From the NCBI GenBank assembly GCA_030532405.1, contig JAUNLF010000005.1:1-64000 (forward strand): a stretch of DNA of 64,000 nt, written 5' to 3'. The DNA is from Actinomycetaceae bacterium. Lineage in GTDB: Bacteria; Actinomycetota; Actinomycetes; Actinomycetales; Actinomycetaceae. Below, piece by piece: positions 49,581 to 58,787 of this stretch (position 1 is its first letter; every line of letters starts with the position of its first letter). The notes under the pieces are model-generated. The model searched no databases. It was not told the DNA's origin and was given only the letters and a program-made list of their open reading frames with translations. The translations under genes and the position numbers were made by a program.

Positions 49581-49668
49581 GGGCCGGCTAGCTGTGCGCT
49601 GTGCGAGGCCACTAGAGTAAAAGAAGTGCAACGCCCAGTTGTGATTATCCGTTGATTGAGGTTTGGCA

Positions 49669-50943
49669 ATGAAGATTTTGCTTTTGGGTTCCGGAGGACG
49701 CGAGCACGCCCTCGCACGCGCAATGGTTGCTGGAACTGACCACGATTTGTATTGCGCTCCTGGGAATCCGGGAACGATGGCGCTTGGCAAAAATGTCGAG
49801 CTAAACCCCAACGATCCGGCGGCCGTTGCCAAGTGGGCGAGCGAGCGGGACGTGGACATGGTTGTAATCGGCCCGGAAGCACCCCTGGTAGCGGGAGTTG
49901 CGGACGCGGTCCGCGACGCCGGCATCCCAGTTTTTGGTCCGAACCAGGACGCGGCAATGCTGGAAGGCTCCAAGGCTTTCGCGAAAGAAATCATGGCGGC
50001 GGCCGGCGTGGAAACAGCGCGGTGCTTCCCGTGCCGATCAGAGCAGGAAGCGCATGCCGCCCTCGAACAAATGAAACCACCGTACGTCGTTAAAAACGAT
50101 GGCCTCGCGGCCGGTAAGGGCGTCGTAGTTACCACCGACCTGGAAGTCGCCCGAGCGCACGCCACCACGTGTGTGACCGCACCCGGCGGTGCTGTGGTGA
50201 TCGAGGACTACCTGGACGGGCCCGAAGTATCACTATTTTGCGTAACGGACGGTGAAACCGTGGTGCCGCTGGCGCCCGCGCAAGACTTCAAACGCGCGCT
50301 CGATAATGATGAGGGCCCAAACACGGGCGGAATGGGCGCGTATTCGCCACTGCCGTGGCTACCCGAAGGCTTCGTTGAAGAGGTCGTTCAAAACGTTGCG
50401 CAGCCGGTTATCGACGAGATGCGCAGGCGGGGCACCCCGTTTGCGGGCCTGCTGTACTGCGGCCTGGCGGTAACCAGCCGCGGGATTAGCGTGATCGAAT
50501 TCAACGCGCGCTTCGGCGACCCTGAAACGCAGGTGGTGCTACCGCGTTTGAAGACACCGCTTGCAGACCTGCTCTACGCCGCGGCAACCGGCACGCTCGC
50601 GGACTTTGAGCCACTCCAGTGGCGCGACGAGGCTAGCGTCGGCGTCGTGATGGCCGCTGAGAATTACCCGGCAACGCCCGTCCTCGGAGACCGTATTGAT
50701 GGCATCACGGATGCCGAAGCGGTGGAGGACGTGCACGTCTACTTTGCGGGCGCCAAAGAAAACGCGGACGGCAAGCTTGAAACGTCCGGAGGACGCGTAC
50801 TGCTGGTCAACGCGCTGGGCGCAGACCTAGATCAGGCGCGTGAACGAGCCTACGAGGGCGTATCGAAGATCGCGTTTAGGAACGGCCACTACCGAACTGA
50901 CATTGCGGCGAAGGCCGGCCAGATTCAGATTCCTACCGCGTAA
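49669..50943 (+). CDS. purD: Phosphoribosylamine-glycine ligase (GAR synthetase)
   Basis: PurD joins glycine to phosphoribosylamine with ATP, step two of purine synthesis. LLLGSGGREHALA (N-terminal), VIGPEAPLVAG, VVKNDGLAAGKGVVV and NTGGMGAYSP are the ATP-grasp blocks, and IEFNARFGDPETQV carries metal-binding residues. The ATG at 49669 is supported by GAGG eight bases upstream; a TTG six bases earlier is in frame. The 424-residue length is usual. It is the first of a purine run, separated by 128 bases from the unknown gene that follows. Confidence 0.96.
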   Translation: MKILLLGSGGREHALARAMVAGTDHDLYCAPGNPGTMALGKNVELNPNDPAAVAKWASERDVDMVVIGPEAPLVAGVADAVRDAGIPVFGPNQDAAMLEGSKAFAKEIMAAAGVETARCFPCRSEQEAHAALEQMKPPYVVKNDGLAAGKGVVVTTDLEVARAHATTCVTAPGGAVVIEDYLDGPEVSLFCVTDGETVVPLAPAQDFKRALDNDEGPNTGGMGAYSPLPWLPEGFVEEVVQNVAQPVIDEMRRRGTPFAGLLYCGLAVTSRGISVIEFNARFGDPETQVVLPRLKTPLADLLYAAATGTLADFEPLQWRDEASVGVVMAAENYPATPVLGDRIDGITDAEAVEDVHVYFAGAKENADGKLETSGGRVLLVNALGADLDQARERAYEGVSKIAFRNGHYRTDIAAKAGQIQIPTA

Positions 50944-51071: not shown

Positions 51072-52118
51072 ATGACGTCGGAGAGCGTGAACTCGGTGGA
51101 CACCGAGGCGCAAGAGGTGAACGCGGCCTCAAGGAACCTGGATAAGTTGCTCCGGGAGACCCGGCGACGCCTGTACGCTGCGGCGGCAGCTGCCGACTAT
51201 GAGATGCTCGGCGAAGTTCAAAGCCTGCCCGATTCGGAGATTGAAGCGATGGAGCGTCGCCTGCGCGGCGGCCTACGCTCGGCTGAACTGGACCACAGGC
51301 GCGCGGTGGCTCGCCTTGCCAGTGCGGACACGCCGCTACCATTTGCTGACGCTGCCAACGAGTTTGTAACCAACACGCTAAAGGGCCGCGACATTGCGGA
51401 CCCGCCCGCGCGAACCCAGTACACGACCGGCGCGGGGGTGGATGAGCAGACCCGCTCCGACGTGTTTACGAAGACGATGAGTCAGCGCGGGCTCACGCAG
51501 CTCGGCTTCCCCAAAGGCCTACCGGTCGGCGACCCTCCGCGGATCACGGCGAACGCGGGGGAAGTCATCCTGGTGATTGCCGAAAATGGGCGTCCCGAGG
51601 ACGGGATCGACGTTGCCACTAGGTTGGCGGCGCGGCTGAATGCGCCCTCGAAAATCGTACTTGCCGGTGCGCGCACGGTGAATCCGGGCCCACAAAGCCG
51701 CGCCCGATCGGCGGAAGAACTGCAAGAGATTCGCGATGAGAACCCGGACGCGGTCGTGATCTTGTCGGTTGTGAATTCTTCGGTGGCTTCGCACCAGCGC
51801 AATGCGGGCCGTATCGTGTCGTCGATTGATTCGGCGCAAACCTGGGTGGTTGTGGATGCGCGGGGCGACGCCGCGCACATCACTCGCGCGGCCACGAGTC
51901 TGCCCGGCGAAGTAACCCCCGACATTTTGGCGGTCACCCACCTTTGGGAGGCGCGCCGCCCCGGCGTCGTGCTGGATCCGGGTGTGCCCGTCGGCCTGAT
52001 TGACGGGGCGCCGGCCTCCACGGCCCTGTGGTCGCTGATCGCTGACGACGCTTACATGCGCCACGTGTCTAACCAAATGAGCAACCCGCCTAAAGAAGAT
52101 TCCGCTGCAAAGGAGTAG
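51072..52118 (+). CDS. Unknown protein encoded inside the purine cluster
   Basis: The 348-residue soluble protein has a predicted helical, Arg/Glu/Ala-rich N-terminal half (about 1-110, with coiled-coil-like stretches around 20-90) and an alpha/beta C-terminal half (about 150-335). VILVIAENGRPEDGIDVATR looks like the first strand and helix of a nucleotide-binding fold, but no P-loop lysine or other catalytic motif is present. WVVVDARGD and DPGVPVGLIDGAPAS are further strand-loop elements. The arrangement faintly recalls the signal-recognition GTPase fold without its GTP motifs; that is a guess. It begins after GGAAGGGG and ends two bases before purC, so it is almost certainly cotranscribed with purine genes. 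Confidence 0.75.
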   Translation: MTSESVNSVDTEAQEVNAASRNLDKLLRETRRRLYAAAAAADYEMLGEVQSLPDSEIEAMERRLRGGLRSAELDHRRAVARLASADTPLPFADAANEFVTNTLKGRDIADPPARTQYTTGAGVDEQTRSDVFTKTMSQRGLTQLGFPKGLPVGDPPRITANAGEVILVIAENGRPEDGIDVATRLAARLNAPSKIVLAGARTVNPGPQSRARSAEELQEIRDENPDAVVILSVVNSSVASHQRNAGRIVSSIDSAQTWVVVDARGDAAHITRAATSLPGEVTPDILAVTHLWEARRPGVVLDPGVPVGLIDGAPASTALWSLIADDAYMRHVSNQMSNPPKEDSAAKE

Positions 52119-52120
52119 CC

Positions 52121-52993
52121 ATGTCCGCCCTGCAAATCCCCGGTTGGAGCCACGTTTCGTCGGGTAAAGTCCGCGATCTTTACGTGAATGAGGACGATCC
52201 TGACCAACTGCTGGTGGTAACTAGTGACAGGATCAGCGCGTACGACTTCGTGCTGGACACCGAGATCCCCGATAAGGGCAAGATCCTAACGGGCTTATCT
52301 AAGTGGTGGTTTGACCAGTTGAACGTGGAAAACCACGTGATTTCCATGGATGTGCCCGAGCAGGTTGCGGGCCGAGCCATGATTTGTGAACGCCTTGACA
52401 TGTTCCCCGTCGAATGTGTTGCCCGCGGATACCTGACGGGTTCGGGCCTCGCGGAATACCGTTCGGATGGCACCGTGTGCGGCATTGAGCTGGAGGATGG
52501 CCTCACGGAGGCGTCCCGCTTGTCGCGCCCGATTTTCACGCCCGCCGCCAAAGCGGAAGTGGGGGAGCATGACGAGAATGTTTCCTTCGAACGCGTTGTT
52601 GAAATGGTTGGCGAGGACGTGGCGCACGCGCTGAAGGCGGCAACGTTGAACATTTACTCGCGTGCTGCCGAGCTAGCCGCGGAGCGCGGCATCATCTTGG
52701 CGGACACGAAGTTTGAGTTCGGTGCGCGCGCGGACGGCTCCCTCGTGCTCGCCGATGAGGTTCTAACCCCCGACTCGTCACGTTTTTGGCCCGCCGACCA
52801 GTGGGTTGAAGGACAGCCCACCCCGTCATTCGACAAGCAGTACGTGCGCGACTGGCTAACCTCGGACAAGTCCGGCTGGGACCGCACCAGCGGAGAACGC
52901 CCGCCCGCCCTCCCGGACGAAATCGTAGAAAAAACGCGAGACCGCTACGTCGAAGCGTACGAGCGCATCACCGGCCAAAAGTTTGAAGCGTAA
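52121..52993 (+). CDS. purC: SAICAR synthetase
   Basis: PurC condenses CAIR with aspartate using ATP. GKVRDLYVNEDDPDQLLVV and TSDRISAYDF are the family opening, ECVARGYLTGSG is the substrate block, and LADTKFEFG with LADEVLTPDSSRFW the metal site. The 290-residue length is the actinobacterial type. AAGGAG precedes the ATG, which lies two bases after the stop of the unknown gene. The gap to purS (245 bases) carries its own promoter elements. Confidence 0.96.
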   Translation: MSALQIPGWSHVSSGKVRDLYVNEDDPDQLLVVTSDRISAYDFVLDTEIPDKGKILTGLSKWWFDQLNVENHVISMDVPEQVAGRAMICERLDMFPVECVARGYLTGSGLAEYRSDGTVCGIELEDGLTEASRLSRPIFTPAAKAEVGEHDENVSFERVVEMVGEDVAHALKAATLNIYSRAAELAAERGIILADTKFEFGARADGSLVLADEVLTPDSSRFWPADQWVEGQPTPSFDKQYVRDWLTSDKSGWDRTSGERPPALPDEIVEKTRDRYVEAYERITGQKFEA

Positions 52994-53238
52994 CCCCGCA
53001 AGGTAGCGCAACCGGCTGGCGTCCGACGCGCGCGAGACGACCAGAAGAAGACTGGAACTCCCGCAGGTACCGATCCCAATCCTAAAGATGGGATCGCCCT
53101 CGAAAATCAATAAAACAAAATACGGAAACTTGGCGTCCCAACAGGTGACGCTTTACCAGTTTTGCGGCTTCTTTAAGTAGGCTTGTGTCGTGACGTAAAG
53201 TCACTGGTCGACACCAATCGCAACTAAAGGAAGTAGTG
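52994..53238 (+). promoter_or_regulatory. Promoter region of purS-purQ-purL
   Basis: This gene-free gap contains GTGAC-GTAAA-GTCAC (53190-53204), a perfect inverted repeat that includes a TAAAGT usable as a -10 box (53196-53201). Overlap of palindrome and -10 suggests repression by a dimeric protein. One CGCCCTC heptamer is at 53095-53101. No terminator is obvious after purC. Confidence 0.45.
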
Positions 53239-53496
53239 ATGGGACGAATCCTCGTTGAAGTAATGCCCAAATTGGAAATCCTGGACCGTCAAGGAAAGGC
53301 CGTGATCGCTGCGCTACCACGCGTAGATGTCACGGCCTTTAAATCTGTACGCCAGGGAAAGACTTTCTACCTGGAGGTAGAGGGCGAAGTTAGCGAGGAT
53401 GACCTCGCGCAGGCACGTAAGGCGGCCGAGACTGTGCTGTCTAACCCGAACATTGAAGATGTCGTTCGCGTTGAGGCGCTGGAGGACGACAAGTGA
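53239..53496 (+). CDS. purS: FGAM synthase subunit PurS
   Basis: PurS is the small bridging subunit that holds PurQ and PurL together in the multi-chain FGAM synthase. The 85-residue protein shows RILVEVMPKLEILDRQGKAV and VRQGKTFYLEVEG, typical PurS strands. AAGGA lies seven bases before the ATG at 53239; a GTG three bases earlier is possible. It overlaps purQ by four bases. Confidence 0.93.
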   Translation: MGRILVEVMPKLEILDRQGKAVIAALPRVDVTAFKSVRQGKTFYLEVEGEVSEDDLAQARKAAETVLSNPNIEDVVRVEALEDDK

Positions 53497-54185
53497 AGGT
53501 CGGTGTCGTAACTTTCCCGGGAACCCTGGAGGCCGCTGACGCTACTCGCGCGGTCCAGGTTGCGGGCGCGCAGGCCGTGCAGCTTTGGCACGAGGACACC
53601 GATCTGCAGGGTGTGGATGCGGTGATTTTGCCCGGCGGTGCAACGCATGGCAACTATGTGCGTCCGGGTGCGCTCGCGGCGCTGTCGCCGATTGTGGGCG
53701 TGATTAAGGAGGCCGCGGCTGACGGCCTGCCGGTGTTGGGTCTTGGAAATGGTTTCCAGATTCTGTGTGAAGCTGGCCTGCTTCCCGGCGCTTTCGTGTC
53801 TAACGCGGAAGGCAAGTACATTTGCAAGGACACCACTTTTAAGGTCGAAAATAATAAGACCGCGTGGACGTCTAAATACGATGAGGGCGCCGAAGTGACG
53901 CTACCGCTTCGCACGGGCTTCGGCCTGTACGCTGCTGACCCCCAGACCCTGCAGGATTTGGAGGATTCGGGGCGCGTCGTTTTGCGATACAACGAGGACG
54001 TGACGGGCTCGGCTAATGCGATAGCGGGCCTGGCTAACGAGGCGGGCAATGTTGTTGGCATGATGGCCAGCGTGGATCACGCCGTGGAAGCCGGATTTGG
54101 TACGGGAACGCCGGGTAGTCATCGCGGTGGAACCGACGGCCTGGCGGTATTCGAATCGGTCGAACTTTCGCTTCAGAACAAGTAG
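53493..54185 (+). CDS. purQ: PurQ-type FGAM synthase subunit lacking the glutaminase catalytic triad
   Basis: PurQ normally releases ammonia from glutamine and passes it to PurL. The 230-residue protein keeps the family framework (KVGVVTFPGTLEAADATRA, NGFQILCEAGLLPGAF). However, the nucleophile position in the usual G-x-C-N-G-F-Q loop is Gly85 (GLGNGFQ, codon GGA at 53745-53747). The usual P-H-P-E motif reads ASVDH, so the histidine is Ser193 and the glutamate Asp195. The oxyanion-side GGFSYGDYLR block is GGATHGNYVR. The frame is intact, overlaps purS by four bases and is followed closely by purL, so it is maintained as a protein. It may be a structural subunit of an ammonia-using enzyme, or another glutaminase may supply it. 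Confidence 0.88.
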   Translation: MKVGVVTFPGTLEAADATRAVQVAGAQAVQLWHEDTDLQGVDAVILPGGATHGNYVRPGALAALSPIVGVIKEAAADGLPVLGLGNGFQILCEAGLLPGAFVSNAEGKYICKDTTFKVENNKTAWTSKYDEGAEVTLPLRTGFGLYAADPQTLQDLEDSGRVVLRYNEDVTGSANAIAGLANEAGNVVGMMASVDHAVEAGFGTGTPGSHRGGTDGLAVFESVELSLQNK

Positions 54186-54195
54186 GGGAATGACG

Positions 54196-56670
54196 ATGGT
54201 GGATCCAAAACAAACAAATGAAGGGGCCGAGCAGATTGTGGCTAACGTGCCCGCGGAGAATCCCCGCCCGAGCGAGCGTCCCGACACCGTGCAGGACGCG
54301 GCTAATACTCCCGACCAGGAGATGCCTTGGGCGTCCCTTGGCCTGACTGAGAGCGAATACAACGACATTGTGGGGCTGCTGGGTAGGCGTCCGACTAACG
54401 CGGAACTCGCAATGTATTCGGTGATGTGGTCGGAGCACTGCTCGTACAAGTCTTCGAAGAAGCACTTGAAGGAACAGTTTGGCTCTAAGACTACCGAGGC
54501 GATGCAAGAGAACCTGCTGGTCGGTATCGGCCAGAACGCGGGTGTTGTGAACATTGGTGACGGCTGGGCGGCCACGTTTAAGGTGGAGTCCCACAACCAC
54601 CCCTCCTACGTAGAGCCTTACGAGGGCGCTGCCACCGGCATTGGTGGCTGTGTTCGCGACATCATCTCGATGGGTGCCCGCCCGATCGCTGTCATGGACG
54701 TGCTGTGCGTGGGGGATGCGCAAAACCCTGACACGGCGCGCGTGCTTCGCGGAGCTGTTGACGGCCTGGCCGGCTACGGTAACGTCCTCGGCGTTCCGAG
54801 CATTGGCGGCCAAACGAGCTTTGACCCGTCCTATCAAGGAAACCCGCTGGTTAACGCAATGTGCGTGGGCGTTATGCGTCATGAGGACGTGCACCTGGCT
54901 AACGCTGAGCACGTCGGAAACAAGGTTGTCCTGTTTGGTGCCCGCACGGGGGGCGATGGTATTGGTGGCGCTTCGATTTTGGCGTCGGAGTCTTTCGCGG
55001 ATGACGAGTCGATTGCCCGCCCAACCGTTCAGGTTGGCGACCCCTACATGGAAAAGCAGATCATCGAATGCATGATGGAACTGTTTGAAAACGGCGTTAT
55101 TGAAGCGATTCAAGACCTGGGCGCCGCGGGCATCTCGTGCGCGACTTCGGAGCTGTCTTCTAACGGCAACACCGGTATGCGCATCAACCTAGAAAACGTG
55201 CTGTTACGCGACCCGACCCTGACCGCGGGTGAAATCCTCATGTCAGAGTCGCAAGAGCGCATGATGGCAACCGTGCCGCCCGAGAAGATGGACGAGTTCT
55301 GGCGCATCGCCAACAAGTGGGGCGTAGAAGGCTCCGTTATCGGTGAGGTTACCGGCGACAAGCGCCTGGTGATCGATCACTTCGGTGAACGCATTGTTGA
55401 CGTTGACCCGAAGACCGTCGCACACGAGGGCCCCATCTACGACCGTCCGTACGCGCGACCCAAGTGGCTGGACGGCCTGCAGGCAGACACGAGCGAGTCC
55501 CTGCCCCGCCCTCGTACACGCGACGAAATCGCAGACGACATCCGCAAGGTCCTAGGATCTGTCAACCAGGCCGCAAAGGGCTGGATGACCGACCAGTTCG
55601 ACCGCTACACGCTGGGCAACACGGCGCTGTCACAACCGGATGACGCGGGCGTGGTTCGCGTCGACGTGGAAACCGACCGCGGCGTCGCCTTGTCGTGCGA
55701 CTCCAACGGCTGGTACGCAAAGTTGGATCCGTACGCGGGCGCACAGCTCGCGCTCGCGGAAGCCTACAGGAATGTGGCGACCGTCGGTGCGAAGCCGATC
55801 GCCATTTCGGACGGCTTGAACTTCGGCAACCCGGAGGACCCGGACGCGATGTGGCAGCTCGTGCAGGCCATGACGGGCCTGGCTGACGGGTGCAAGCAGA
55901 TGAACATCCCCGTCACGGGCGGCAACGTGTCGTTGTACAACTCTTCGGGCACCGAGATGAGCCAGCCCGACTCGTCGATTAACCCCACGCCGATCGTCGT
56001 GATGCTGGGCGTTATGGAGGACGTCAAGAGGGCGCGCCCCTCCGGCTGGTTCGACGAAGGCCTGGCCGTCTACCTGCTCGGTAGCACCGCTGACGAACTG
56101 GACGCGTCGGTTTGGGCGCGCGAAGTTCACGGCCACATGGGCGGCATGCCGCCGAAGGTGGACTTGGAGGCGGAAATGGCACTCGGACGCGTGCTGCACG
56201 CCCTCGTGAACAATGACGGTCCGGATGGAAACCCGCTAATCTCAGCGTCACACGACGTTTCTGAAGGCGGCCTGATCCAGACGCTCGTTGAAATGGCGAC
56301 GCGCGCTGGTATTGGTGCCAGCATTGATTTGGCGGCGCACGTGAAGGAAAACGAGATCGACGACTTCGCAGCGTTGTTCTCTGAATCGCAGGGCCGCGTT
56401 GTTATTGCGGCTCCCGAGGGCGCTCACGAAGCGATCGTCGCGGCGGCGGACGCCGAGGGCGTTGCCTGCCAGCGCATCGGCATCACGGGCGGCACCCTGC
56501 TGACCATCGCCGGCGCCGACACGCTGGGCGACATCGCCGGATACGACGAGTCCATGCTCGACGGGGCCGACGAAGAAGCCCCCAGCGAGACCGGTGTAGG
56601 CCAACTCGTGTTCAAGGTTCGCGAACTATCCGAGCAGCTGGAATCCCCACTGCCTGACCACTTCGCGTAA
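54196..56670 (+). CDS. purL: FGAM synthase subunit PurL
   Basis: PurL converts FGAR to FGAM with ATP and ammonia. The synthase blocks are intact: MWSEHCSYKSSKKHLK with the catalytic histidine, KVESHNHPSYVEPYEGAATG, GGDGIGGAS, QDLGAAGISCATSE and VTGGNVSLYN. No glutaminase domain is attached. Length is 824 residues with about 60 extra, weakly conserved N-terminal residues. I chose the ATG at 54196 because AGGGGA lies seven bases upstream; an ATG six bases earlier is in frame, and the longer frame from 54097 would run through purQ. Confidence 0.95.
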   Translation: MVDPKQTNEGAEQIVANVPAENPRPSERPDTVQDAANTPDQEMPWASLGLTESEYNDIVGLLGRRPTNAELAMYSVMWSEHCSYKSSKKHLKEQFGSKTTEAMQENLLVGIGQNAGVVNIGDGWAATFKVESHNHPSYVEPYEGAATGIGGCVRDIISMGARPIAVMDVLCVGDAQNPDTARVLRGAVDGLAGYGNVLGVPSIGGQTSFDPSYQGNPLVNAMCVGVMRHEDVHLANAEHVGNKVVLFGARTGGDGIGGASILASESFADDESIARPTVQVGDPYMEKQIIECMMELFENGVIEAIQDLGAAGISCATSELSSNGNTGMRINLENVLLRDPTLTAGEILMSESQERMMATVPPEKMDEFWRIANKWGVEGSVIGEVTGDKRLVIDHFGERIVDVDPKTVAHEGPIYDRPYARPKWLDGLQADTSESLPRPRTRDEIADDIRKVLGSVNQAAKGWMTDQFDRYTLGNTALSQPDDAGVVRVDVETDRGVALSCDSNGWYAKLDPYAGAQLALAEAYRNVATVGAKPIAISDGLNFGNPEDPDAMWQLVQAMTGLADGCKQMNIPVTGGNVSLYNSSGTEMSQPDSSINPTPIVVMLGVMEDVKRARPSGWFDEGLAVYLLGSTADELDASVWAREVHGHMGGMPPKVDLEAEMALGRVLHALVNNDGPDGNPLISASHDVSEGGLIQTLVEMATRAGIGASIDLAAHVKENEIDDFAALFSESQGRVVIAAPEGAHEAIVAAADAEGVACQRIGITGGTLLTIAGADTLGDIAGYDESMLDGADEEAPSETGVGQLVFKVRELSEQLESPLPDHFA

Positions 56671-57452: not shown

Positions 57453-58787
<1,335 letters not shown>

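Follow-up and report, generated by a model that had tools for sequence, protein, structure and literature searches.

The question raised by this locus is from where an FGAM synthase takes its nitrogen when PurQ, the glutaminase-type subunit of the complex, has lost the residues needed to hydrolyse glutamine. The window, that is, the whole stretch of DNA analysed, comprises 64,000 nucleotides (positions 1 to 64,000 of contig JAUNLF010000005.1, assembly GCA_030532405.1) from an Actinomycetaceae bacterium, whose genome of 2.23 Mb in 33 contigs (G000) is 99.7% complete. The original prediction concerned one gene of one organism; the loss proved real there, but it is in fact clade-wide and recurs in other lineages.

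The purQ gene and its operon

Glutaminase chemistry of class I amidotransferases needs Cys, His and Glu. In purQ (53493..54185; this gene, its sites and the named genes of the operon lie on the forward strand), a GGA codon (53745..53747) places Gly85 at the site of the catalytic Cys, and the product reads VLGLGNGFQ instead of VLGICNGFQ. At the place of the PHPE motif of relatives there is ASVD (residues 192-195, 54066..54077), with Ser193 (54069-54071) in the His position and Asp195 (54075-54077) in the Glu position. The equivalent of the oxyanion loop (residues 48-57, 53634..53663) is GGATHGNYVR, against GGFSYGDYLR in most Cys-bearing relatives, and its residue 50 (53640-53642) is Ala for Phe. 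The three replacements and the altered loop had been claimed beforehand, and translation and alignment gave all of them as described. The claimed intact frame, coupling to purS and adjacency to purL were likewise borne out by the open reading frame 53493-54185, which has a GTG start, 230 amino acids and no internal stops, overlaps the purS stop with its start and is followed by purL.

By family, the protein is a PurQ. Profile searches gave 244.8 bits with NF002957 (curated cut-off 212) and 203.7 bits with TIGR01737 (curated cut-off 177.8), the gene stands in an operon with purS and a small purL, and the predicted fold is that of a class I glutaminase. As a functional class I glutamine amidotransferase it does not qualify, Gly85, Ser193 and Asp195 having replaced Cys, His and Glu, and from these residues it is close to certain that this PurQ would be unable to act as a Cys-based glutaminase. 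The predicted fold is intact: AlphaFold modelling based on 36 Cys-less PurQs gave a mean pLDDT of 91.4 and a pTM of 0.90, and the best PDB match of the model was the Thermotoga maritima PurQ of PurLQS (3d54 chain D; TM 0.93 by target length, 39% identity). A second complete purQ, named at the outset as a finding that would speak against the prediction, was sought throughout the genome and none was found: purQ itself was the sole match of a six-frame protein search (E<=10) and of the GATase_5 profile PF13507, with which no long PurL was found either.

The gene order in the window is purD (49663..50943), a gene for a familyless protein of 348 amino acids, purC (52121..52993), purS (53236..53496; 55.8 bits, under the curated cut-off of 75 of that model), purQ, purL for the small PurL, the catalytic subunit of FGAM synthase (54190..56670; the analyses used the range from 54193), and gdhA for NADP glutamate dehydrogenase (57453..58787). 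The order purC-purS-purQ-purL, or part of it, is kept alike in Cys-bearing members of the genus and in those without the Cys, called disarmed below. The proximity of gdhA had been taken as a sign of an ammonia-centred nitrogen economy, and this argument had to be given up: all six Cys-bearing genus members, and one genome from another genus (G028), likewise have gdhA no farther than about 2.2 kb from purL, so that this proximity is not specific to the disarmed clade.

The protein encoded between purD and purC (51072-52118) matched no NCBIfam or Pfam family, and its homologue occupies the same place in seven of ten other genus loci (58-86% identity).

The disarmed clade and its glutamine-using enzymes

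A search of 59 genomes (the own genome, the genus, the family and the order) gave a PurQ match in 49, of which 30 were read, G005 being added later. Gly for Cys together with Ser for His was found in five of the 30: the own genome, G002, G004, G001 and G010, the last four with PurQ identities to the own protein of 75, 67, 65 and 62%, respectively. The relatives sharing these changes are Gleimia europaea, Actinomyces urinae and two MAGs. The PHPE site reads ASVD in the own genome and G004, ASAD in G002 and ASPE in G001 and G010, so that Glu persists in two of the five. The other 25 PurQs read retain Cys and PHPE, as does that of G005, which also has GGFSYGDYLR, and six other members of the genus retain all three triad residues.

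The change is not confined to PurQ. Positions invariant among Cys-bearing references (n=8 for purS, purQ and purL, 5 for purD and purC, 7 for gdhA) were counted as altered when changed in all disarmed members (n=5; 4 for gdhA). Such positions made up 20/115 in purQ, 41/460 in purL and 3/42 in purS, against 4/175 in purD, 1/142 in purC and 1/263 in gdhA (Fisher p versus the pooled neighbours about 5e-12 for purQ, 9e-10 for purL and 0.02 for purS, the positions not being independent). Therefore, the FGAM synthase complex, namely PurQ, PurL and, more weakly, PurS, changed on the branch leading to the clade, and its neighbours hardly did. Selection on purQ is relaxed yet purifying, with dN/dS (Nei-Gojobori) far below 1: 0.10 between G001 and G010, where purL, purC and gdhA have 0.02, and 0.14 between the own genome and G002, where purL has 0.07.

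Two other purine enzymes are altered at their glutamine sites in the same genomes. All four clade GuaA proteins read have Ser for Cys and Met, Arg or Leu for His (LGISTGFQ and VQWMPE in the own genome, LGISYGFQ and VQWRPE in G002, LAISSGFH and VEWLPE in G001 and G010), against LGICYGFQ and QWHPE in the Cys-bearing members read (G003, G005, G006, G009). The own GuaA is over the curated cut-off for GMP synthase (700 versus 400 bits), and its synthetase part passes the cut-off curated for that part. G004, a draft 89% complete, yielded no GuaA glutaminase domain. In PurF, the Asp of the STDT motif, which we take to be Asp127 in E. coli numbering, is Gly in 5/5 disarmed genomes and Asp in 6/6 Cys-bearing members of the genus, and the stretch after GHVRY is ATTG in the six Cys-bearing members against ATQD, ATKD, ATKA, ATKA and STKD in the five disarmed ones. 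PurF may still use glutamine, since its nucleophilic Cys1 is present in all 31 PurFs read (11 from the genus and 20 from elsewhere).

Glutamine synthetase (GlnA) was not detected in four of the five clade genomes, G001 and G010 (both 99% complete) and the drafts G002 (91%) and G004 (89%). Two matches each were found in the own genome and in the six Cys-bearing genus members, the own two being 74-81% identical to the genus orthologues, with the exclusion of a second GlnA hit of another type in G007 (23%). The own genome also encodes an intact HisH (LGICVGLQ, FHPE), a GatD-like protein with its Cys kept (119 bits, below the cut-off of 400), a free-standing class I glutamine amidotransferase (G000:C5) with Cys and FHPE that passes the NF005743 cut-off, and GatA. 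Since these and the two GlnA genes remain, glutamine is still made and probably used in the own species; full abandonment of glutamine was rejected for it on the same grounds, and the ammonia-centred economy originally proposed is too strong a description. Judging by the residues, the own species is one that altered the glutamine sites of its purine synthesis, and its relatives went further.

Some neighbouring observations and rejected candidates should be mentioned. In the HisH of G002 (138.8 bits against a cut-off of 105.4), Asn replaces the catalytic Cys, HPE is retained and the N-terminal YGSGN motif is altered. In the own GatA (G000:C9), some 50 residues, with Glu, Thr, Ala and Ser abundant among them, form an insertion missing from the other aligned GatAs. 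GatCAB was rejected as a further disarmed enzyme, the active-site stretches of GatA being alike across the genus (the G002 frame is incomplete). CTP synthase PyrG (PF06418) was found in none of the 11 genus genomes and in 14/14 control genomes; being undetected throughout the genus, it offers no contrast between disarmed and Cys-bearing members, and cytidine nucleotides may therefore come by another route in the genus. Frames which we take to be GlmS-like were present in G003, G007 and G008 only and offer no contrast either.

Cys-less PurQ in other lineages

A collection of species genomes (84,980 species by its description) was scanned with a PurQ pattern that excludes Cys by requiring a codon whose first base is not T. 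The scan gave 108 stretches, of which 80 were examined: 11 were judged chance matches, one was a long frame resembling PurL, with Ser, and 68 were PurQ frames, four of them from the Gleimia clade. At least 64 Cys-less PurQ frames from several phyla thus lie outside this clade, a lower bound because the pattern skips codons starting with T, such as the TCN codons of Ser. After eight cut or incomplete frames were dropped, 60 were aligned, every one of them matching both NF002957 and TIGR01737 at E<=1e-5; the own gene and that of G010 bring the set to 62. The residue at the Cys position is Gly in 53, Ser in four, Arg in two, Ala in two and Asn in one, whereas His is retained in 36 and Glu in 58.

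The carriers belong, as we partly assume from their names, to Actinomycetota, Bacillota, Bacteroidota, Verrucomicrobiota, Pseudomonadota, Planctomycetota, an archaeon and others. By record title, those of Bacillota include many Sporosarcina, Bhargavaea, Lederbergia and Bacillus, along with Tepidanaerobacter, Syntrophaceticus and Thermacetogenium, and at least 13 records with a Cys-less PurQ are titled Sporosarcina or Filibacter. The Cys-less PurQ of a record named Arthrobacter beigongshangensis falls among those of Sporosarcina, and the record may therefore be mislabelled or contaminated. In viral contigs, the Cys-less pattern gave no stretches and the Cys pattern gave six, all with GGFSYGD and five of them the same protein stretch.

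In a PurQ tree of 93 sequences, from which Planctomycetota and Bacteriovoracaceae were left out, the distribution takes seven losses if Cys is never regained and five changes by Fitch parsimony. Deep support in the PurQ trees is weak and Cys-bearing controls outside Actinomycetota are few, and the tree was accordingly rejected as a demonstration of independent origins. The PurQs of the Gleimia clade group with Cys-less ones of Propionibacteriaceae (support 0.81, and 0.95 in the 93-sequence tree) and do not fall within the Cys-bearing Actinomycetaceae, a placement that may reflect transfer, shared convergence or long-branch attraction.

The pocket has changed at a second position as well. Residue 50 is Phe in all 25 aligned Cys-bearing PurQs, in the T. 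maritima protein and in six plasmid-borne and six viral-contig PurQs, while the 62 Cys-less proteins have Ala (43), Phe (13), Ser (3), Tyr (2) or Thr (1), and 41 of them combine Ala50 with Gly85. Ala50 is found in Gleimia, Propionibacteriaceae, Sporosarcina, Bhargavaea, Bacillus and Lederbergia, as well as in Tepidanaerobacter, Cerasicoccus, Bacteroidales MAGs and a Bacteriovoracaceae MAG. Replacement of Phe by Ala takes two base changes, and its recurrence is for this reason hard to ascribe to drift alone; we infer from the sequences a widening of the former glutamine pocket.

Thirty Cys-less PurQ genomes, chosen for lineage spread, were searched for the accompanying changes, intact-PurQ genomes for comparison coming from the genus alone. 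The N-terminal GuaA profile matched in 26 of them; the GuaA triad is intact in 16, and the glutaminase part is changed or truncated in eight. These eight are three Sporosarcina with a large deletion, a Filibacter with Ser for Cys, Tepidanaerobacter, Hydrogenispora and Bacteroidetes ADurb.Bin008 with Gly for Cys and HPE kept, and Bacillota AS20, whose domain is mostly deleted. In the remaining six a GuaA glutaminase was not found, four of them giving no match whatever, and one match that is not GuaA presumably represents a CarA with Gly for Cys. A Coriobacteriales MAG (G083), whose PurQ has Ser for Cys, encodes a protein resembling the small chain of carbamoyl-phosphate synthetase, in which Gly (LGLGLGHQ) occupies the place of the catalytic Cys.

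Of the 30 genomes, 20 gave a PurF, and 17 of these 20 depart from R-Y-[AST]-T-[TAS]-[GS] after GHVRY, one of them (RYSSTG) only slightly; in Lederbergia the sequence is RYGGID, where the B. subtilis enzyme, to which this PurF is otherwise close, has RYATAG. In the record of Sporosarcina thermotolerans, purF is spread over two frames and interrupted by stops, through an error or because it is a pseudogene. Glutamine synthetase was matched in 21 of the 30 genomes and was not detected in nine, among them three Sporosarcina, Syntrophaceticus and Thermacetogenium, the completeness of these genomes not being given. The three Sporosarcina read combine a Cys-less PurQ, a truncated GuaA glutaminase and no detected GlnA.

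Source of the nitrogen and comparison with known systems

Taken together, these findings make it quite probable that free ammonia feeds the FGAM synthase complex and that PurQ stays in it as a structural subunit. PurS-PurQ-PurL of this Gleimia-type actinomycete would make FGAM from free NH3 and not from the amide nitrogen of glutamine, and PurQ, its glutaminase chemistry lost, would be retained as a folded subunit that PurL needs. This reading had been part of the original prediction and is now wider, with changes in GuaA and PurF, GlnA undetected in four of five clade genomes and no replacement PurQ found in the own genome. Because the loss in PurQ is shared by a clade of five genomes along with altered GuaA and PurF sites, all three amide-nitrogen steps of purine synthesis (PurF, PurQ, GuaA) seem to have shifted away from glutamine and towards ambient ammonia. 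Glutamine synthetase would be left for other uses in the own species and was not detected in its four relatives. Activity of the complex with NH3 in the cell, a need for PurQ and sufficient ammonia in the niche are presumed by this reading.

The original prediction also allowed for another glutaminase of the cell, which would dock on PurL and leave PurQ a mere scaffold; this we consider unlikely. The best candidate is the amidotransferase G000:C5, the type of which, with Cys and FHPE, occurs in the own genome, G001, G002 and G010, and HisH and the GatD-like protein of the own genome retain their Cys too. Relatives of G000:C5 with 58-60% identity exist, however, in the Cys-bearing G003, G007 and G008, so that it did not arise with the PurQ loss and was rejected as a clade-specific replacement. 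Its gene is on a different contig than purL, and a docking enzyme would leave unexplained the loss of glutaminase residues from GuaA, which is a fused enzyme.

Slightly less probable still is a decay of de novo purine synthesis, by which the clade would live on salvaged purines and PurQ, PurF and GuaA would be heading to pseudogenes. The relaxed selection on purQ and the substitutions in three enzymes of the pathway fit such a decay, but the striking changes are at the glutamine sites, and the frames, the synthetase domain of GuaA, the operon order, purD, purC and purL are conserved, purL having dN/dS values of 0.02-0.14 among disarmed members; moreover, carriers of Cys-less PurQ include named isolates, for example of Sporosarcina. 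That PurQ hydrolyses glutamine through another residue is very improbable: Cys92 does exist three residues after the GFQ motif (GFQILCEAG), but it is common in relatives with the triad and missing from many Cys-less PurQs elsewhere (ILTE, ILLE, ILVE), and the loop and the His are altered as well, which argues against its chemistry. An error of sequencing or assembly at the three sites, foreseen as an objection from the beginning, can practically be dismissed because Gly85 and Ser193 recur in four related assemblies and Asp for Glu in G002 and G004.

Use of free ammonia by FGAM synthase, with PurQ as its structural subunit, thus stands as the best explanation, and two extensions of it are offered with more reserve. 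According to the first, which is speculative, the trimming of Phe50 to Ala and of Cys85 to Gly may open an entry for NH3 into the PurQ-PurL channel. According to the accessible part of a study of FGAR-AT, the proposed ammonia channels of the native enzyme trapped no xenon, which its authors interpret as a channel shut to external agents in this conformation (PMC3815217). The second extension is tentative and, in our opinion, rather more doubtful than probable: through this paired loss of side chains PurQ would have been turned repeatedly into an ammonia port and, with the alteration of PurF and GuaA and then the loss of glutamine synthetase, would mark a recurrent switch of purine synthesis to free ammonia. 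Such a switch would explain the reported requirement of ureolytic Sporosarcina for ammonia and also for alkaline pH, because the substrate, if the port reading is true, is NH3 and not NH4+. Counting against the ammonia reading, the intact GuaA triad (16/30) and a glutamine synthetase match (21/30) are common among disarmed genomes, and so is retention of His (36/62) and Glu (58/62) in the Cys-less PurQs themselves; the Cys1 of PurF and the glutamine enzymes left in the own species weigh in the same direction. A tie to ammonia-rich habitats may be supposed, although for some carriers, such as fen MAGs and Cerasicoccus, an origin of this kind is not obvious.

The channelling of ammonia by amidotransferases is textbook material, and cells are said typically to contain quite little free ammonia (PMC3376133, in the part available). 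If the proposed reading is true, purine synthesis can run on ambient ammonia, the loss is a mark of ammonia-adapted life readable from genomes, and these purine steps are predicted to resist glutamine analogues. It would also offer a candidate explanation at the level of genes for the long-known ammonia requirement of Sporosarcina pasteurii.

Among the excerpts of open-licence literature searched, none described a PurQ that is full-length and disarmed, an archaeal survey (PMC3261824) coming nearest, and there was nothing that links the ammonia requirement of Sporosarcina to the state of purQ, guaA or glnA; a search of this literature on Gleimia europaea and glutamine also found nothing.

Comparison with known systems helps to place these findings. 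The PurS-PurQ-PurL complex of T. maritima (PDB 3d54) is alike in predicted fold (TM 0.93 to chain D), PurQ family and purS/purL operon; its PurQ has Cys, PHPE and GGFSYGDYLR, whereas the PurQ described here has Gly, ASVD and GGATHGNYVR. In vertebrate mitochondrial carbamoyl-phosphate synthetase I, a class I glutaminase domain is kept without its Cys and the synthetase works on free ammonia. The present case differs from it in that the disarmed part is a separate bacterial subunit, GuaA and PurF have changed in parallel, and many lineages are involved. The ammonia requirement of S. pasteurii reportedly goes back to older sources, Wiley and Stokes in 1962 and Morsdorf and Kaltwasser in 1989. Ammonia is described as mandatory for this species in the accessible text of a study whose strain grew without glutamine (PMC7775470); the 80 loci examined do not include one of S. 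pasteurii itself.

The archaeal survey, in the passages available, offers purine amidotransferase homologues that likewise lack catalytic residues. An archaeal PurF' without them stands beside a PurF with Cys, its dependence on ammonia being suggested there as untested; a PurQ-like protein of M. marisnigri misses all three triad residues, is about 150 residues short and has a full-length PurQ alongside, so that decay was suspected; the PurQ Cys and Glu are otherwise fully conserved, with Asn for His in two Thaumarchaeota (PMC3261824). An engineered parallel is the C89A/C113A form of the GMP synthetase of P. falciparum, which is without the catalytic Cys and which, according to the portion of the report available, has no glutamine-dependent activity and a Km for NH4Cl 6.7-fold lower than that of the wild type (PMC9312489). 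For NadE, ammonia-dependent amidation in the cell was argued from comparative genomics and assays, as the available part of that paper has it; NadE is a single-domain enzyme with no glutaminase part and is thought to be ancestral (PMC3376133), whereas in the FGAM synthase considered here the glutaminase part is present and disarmed.
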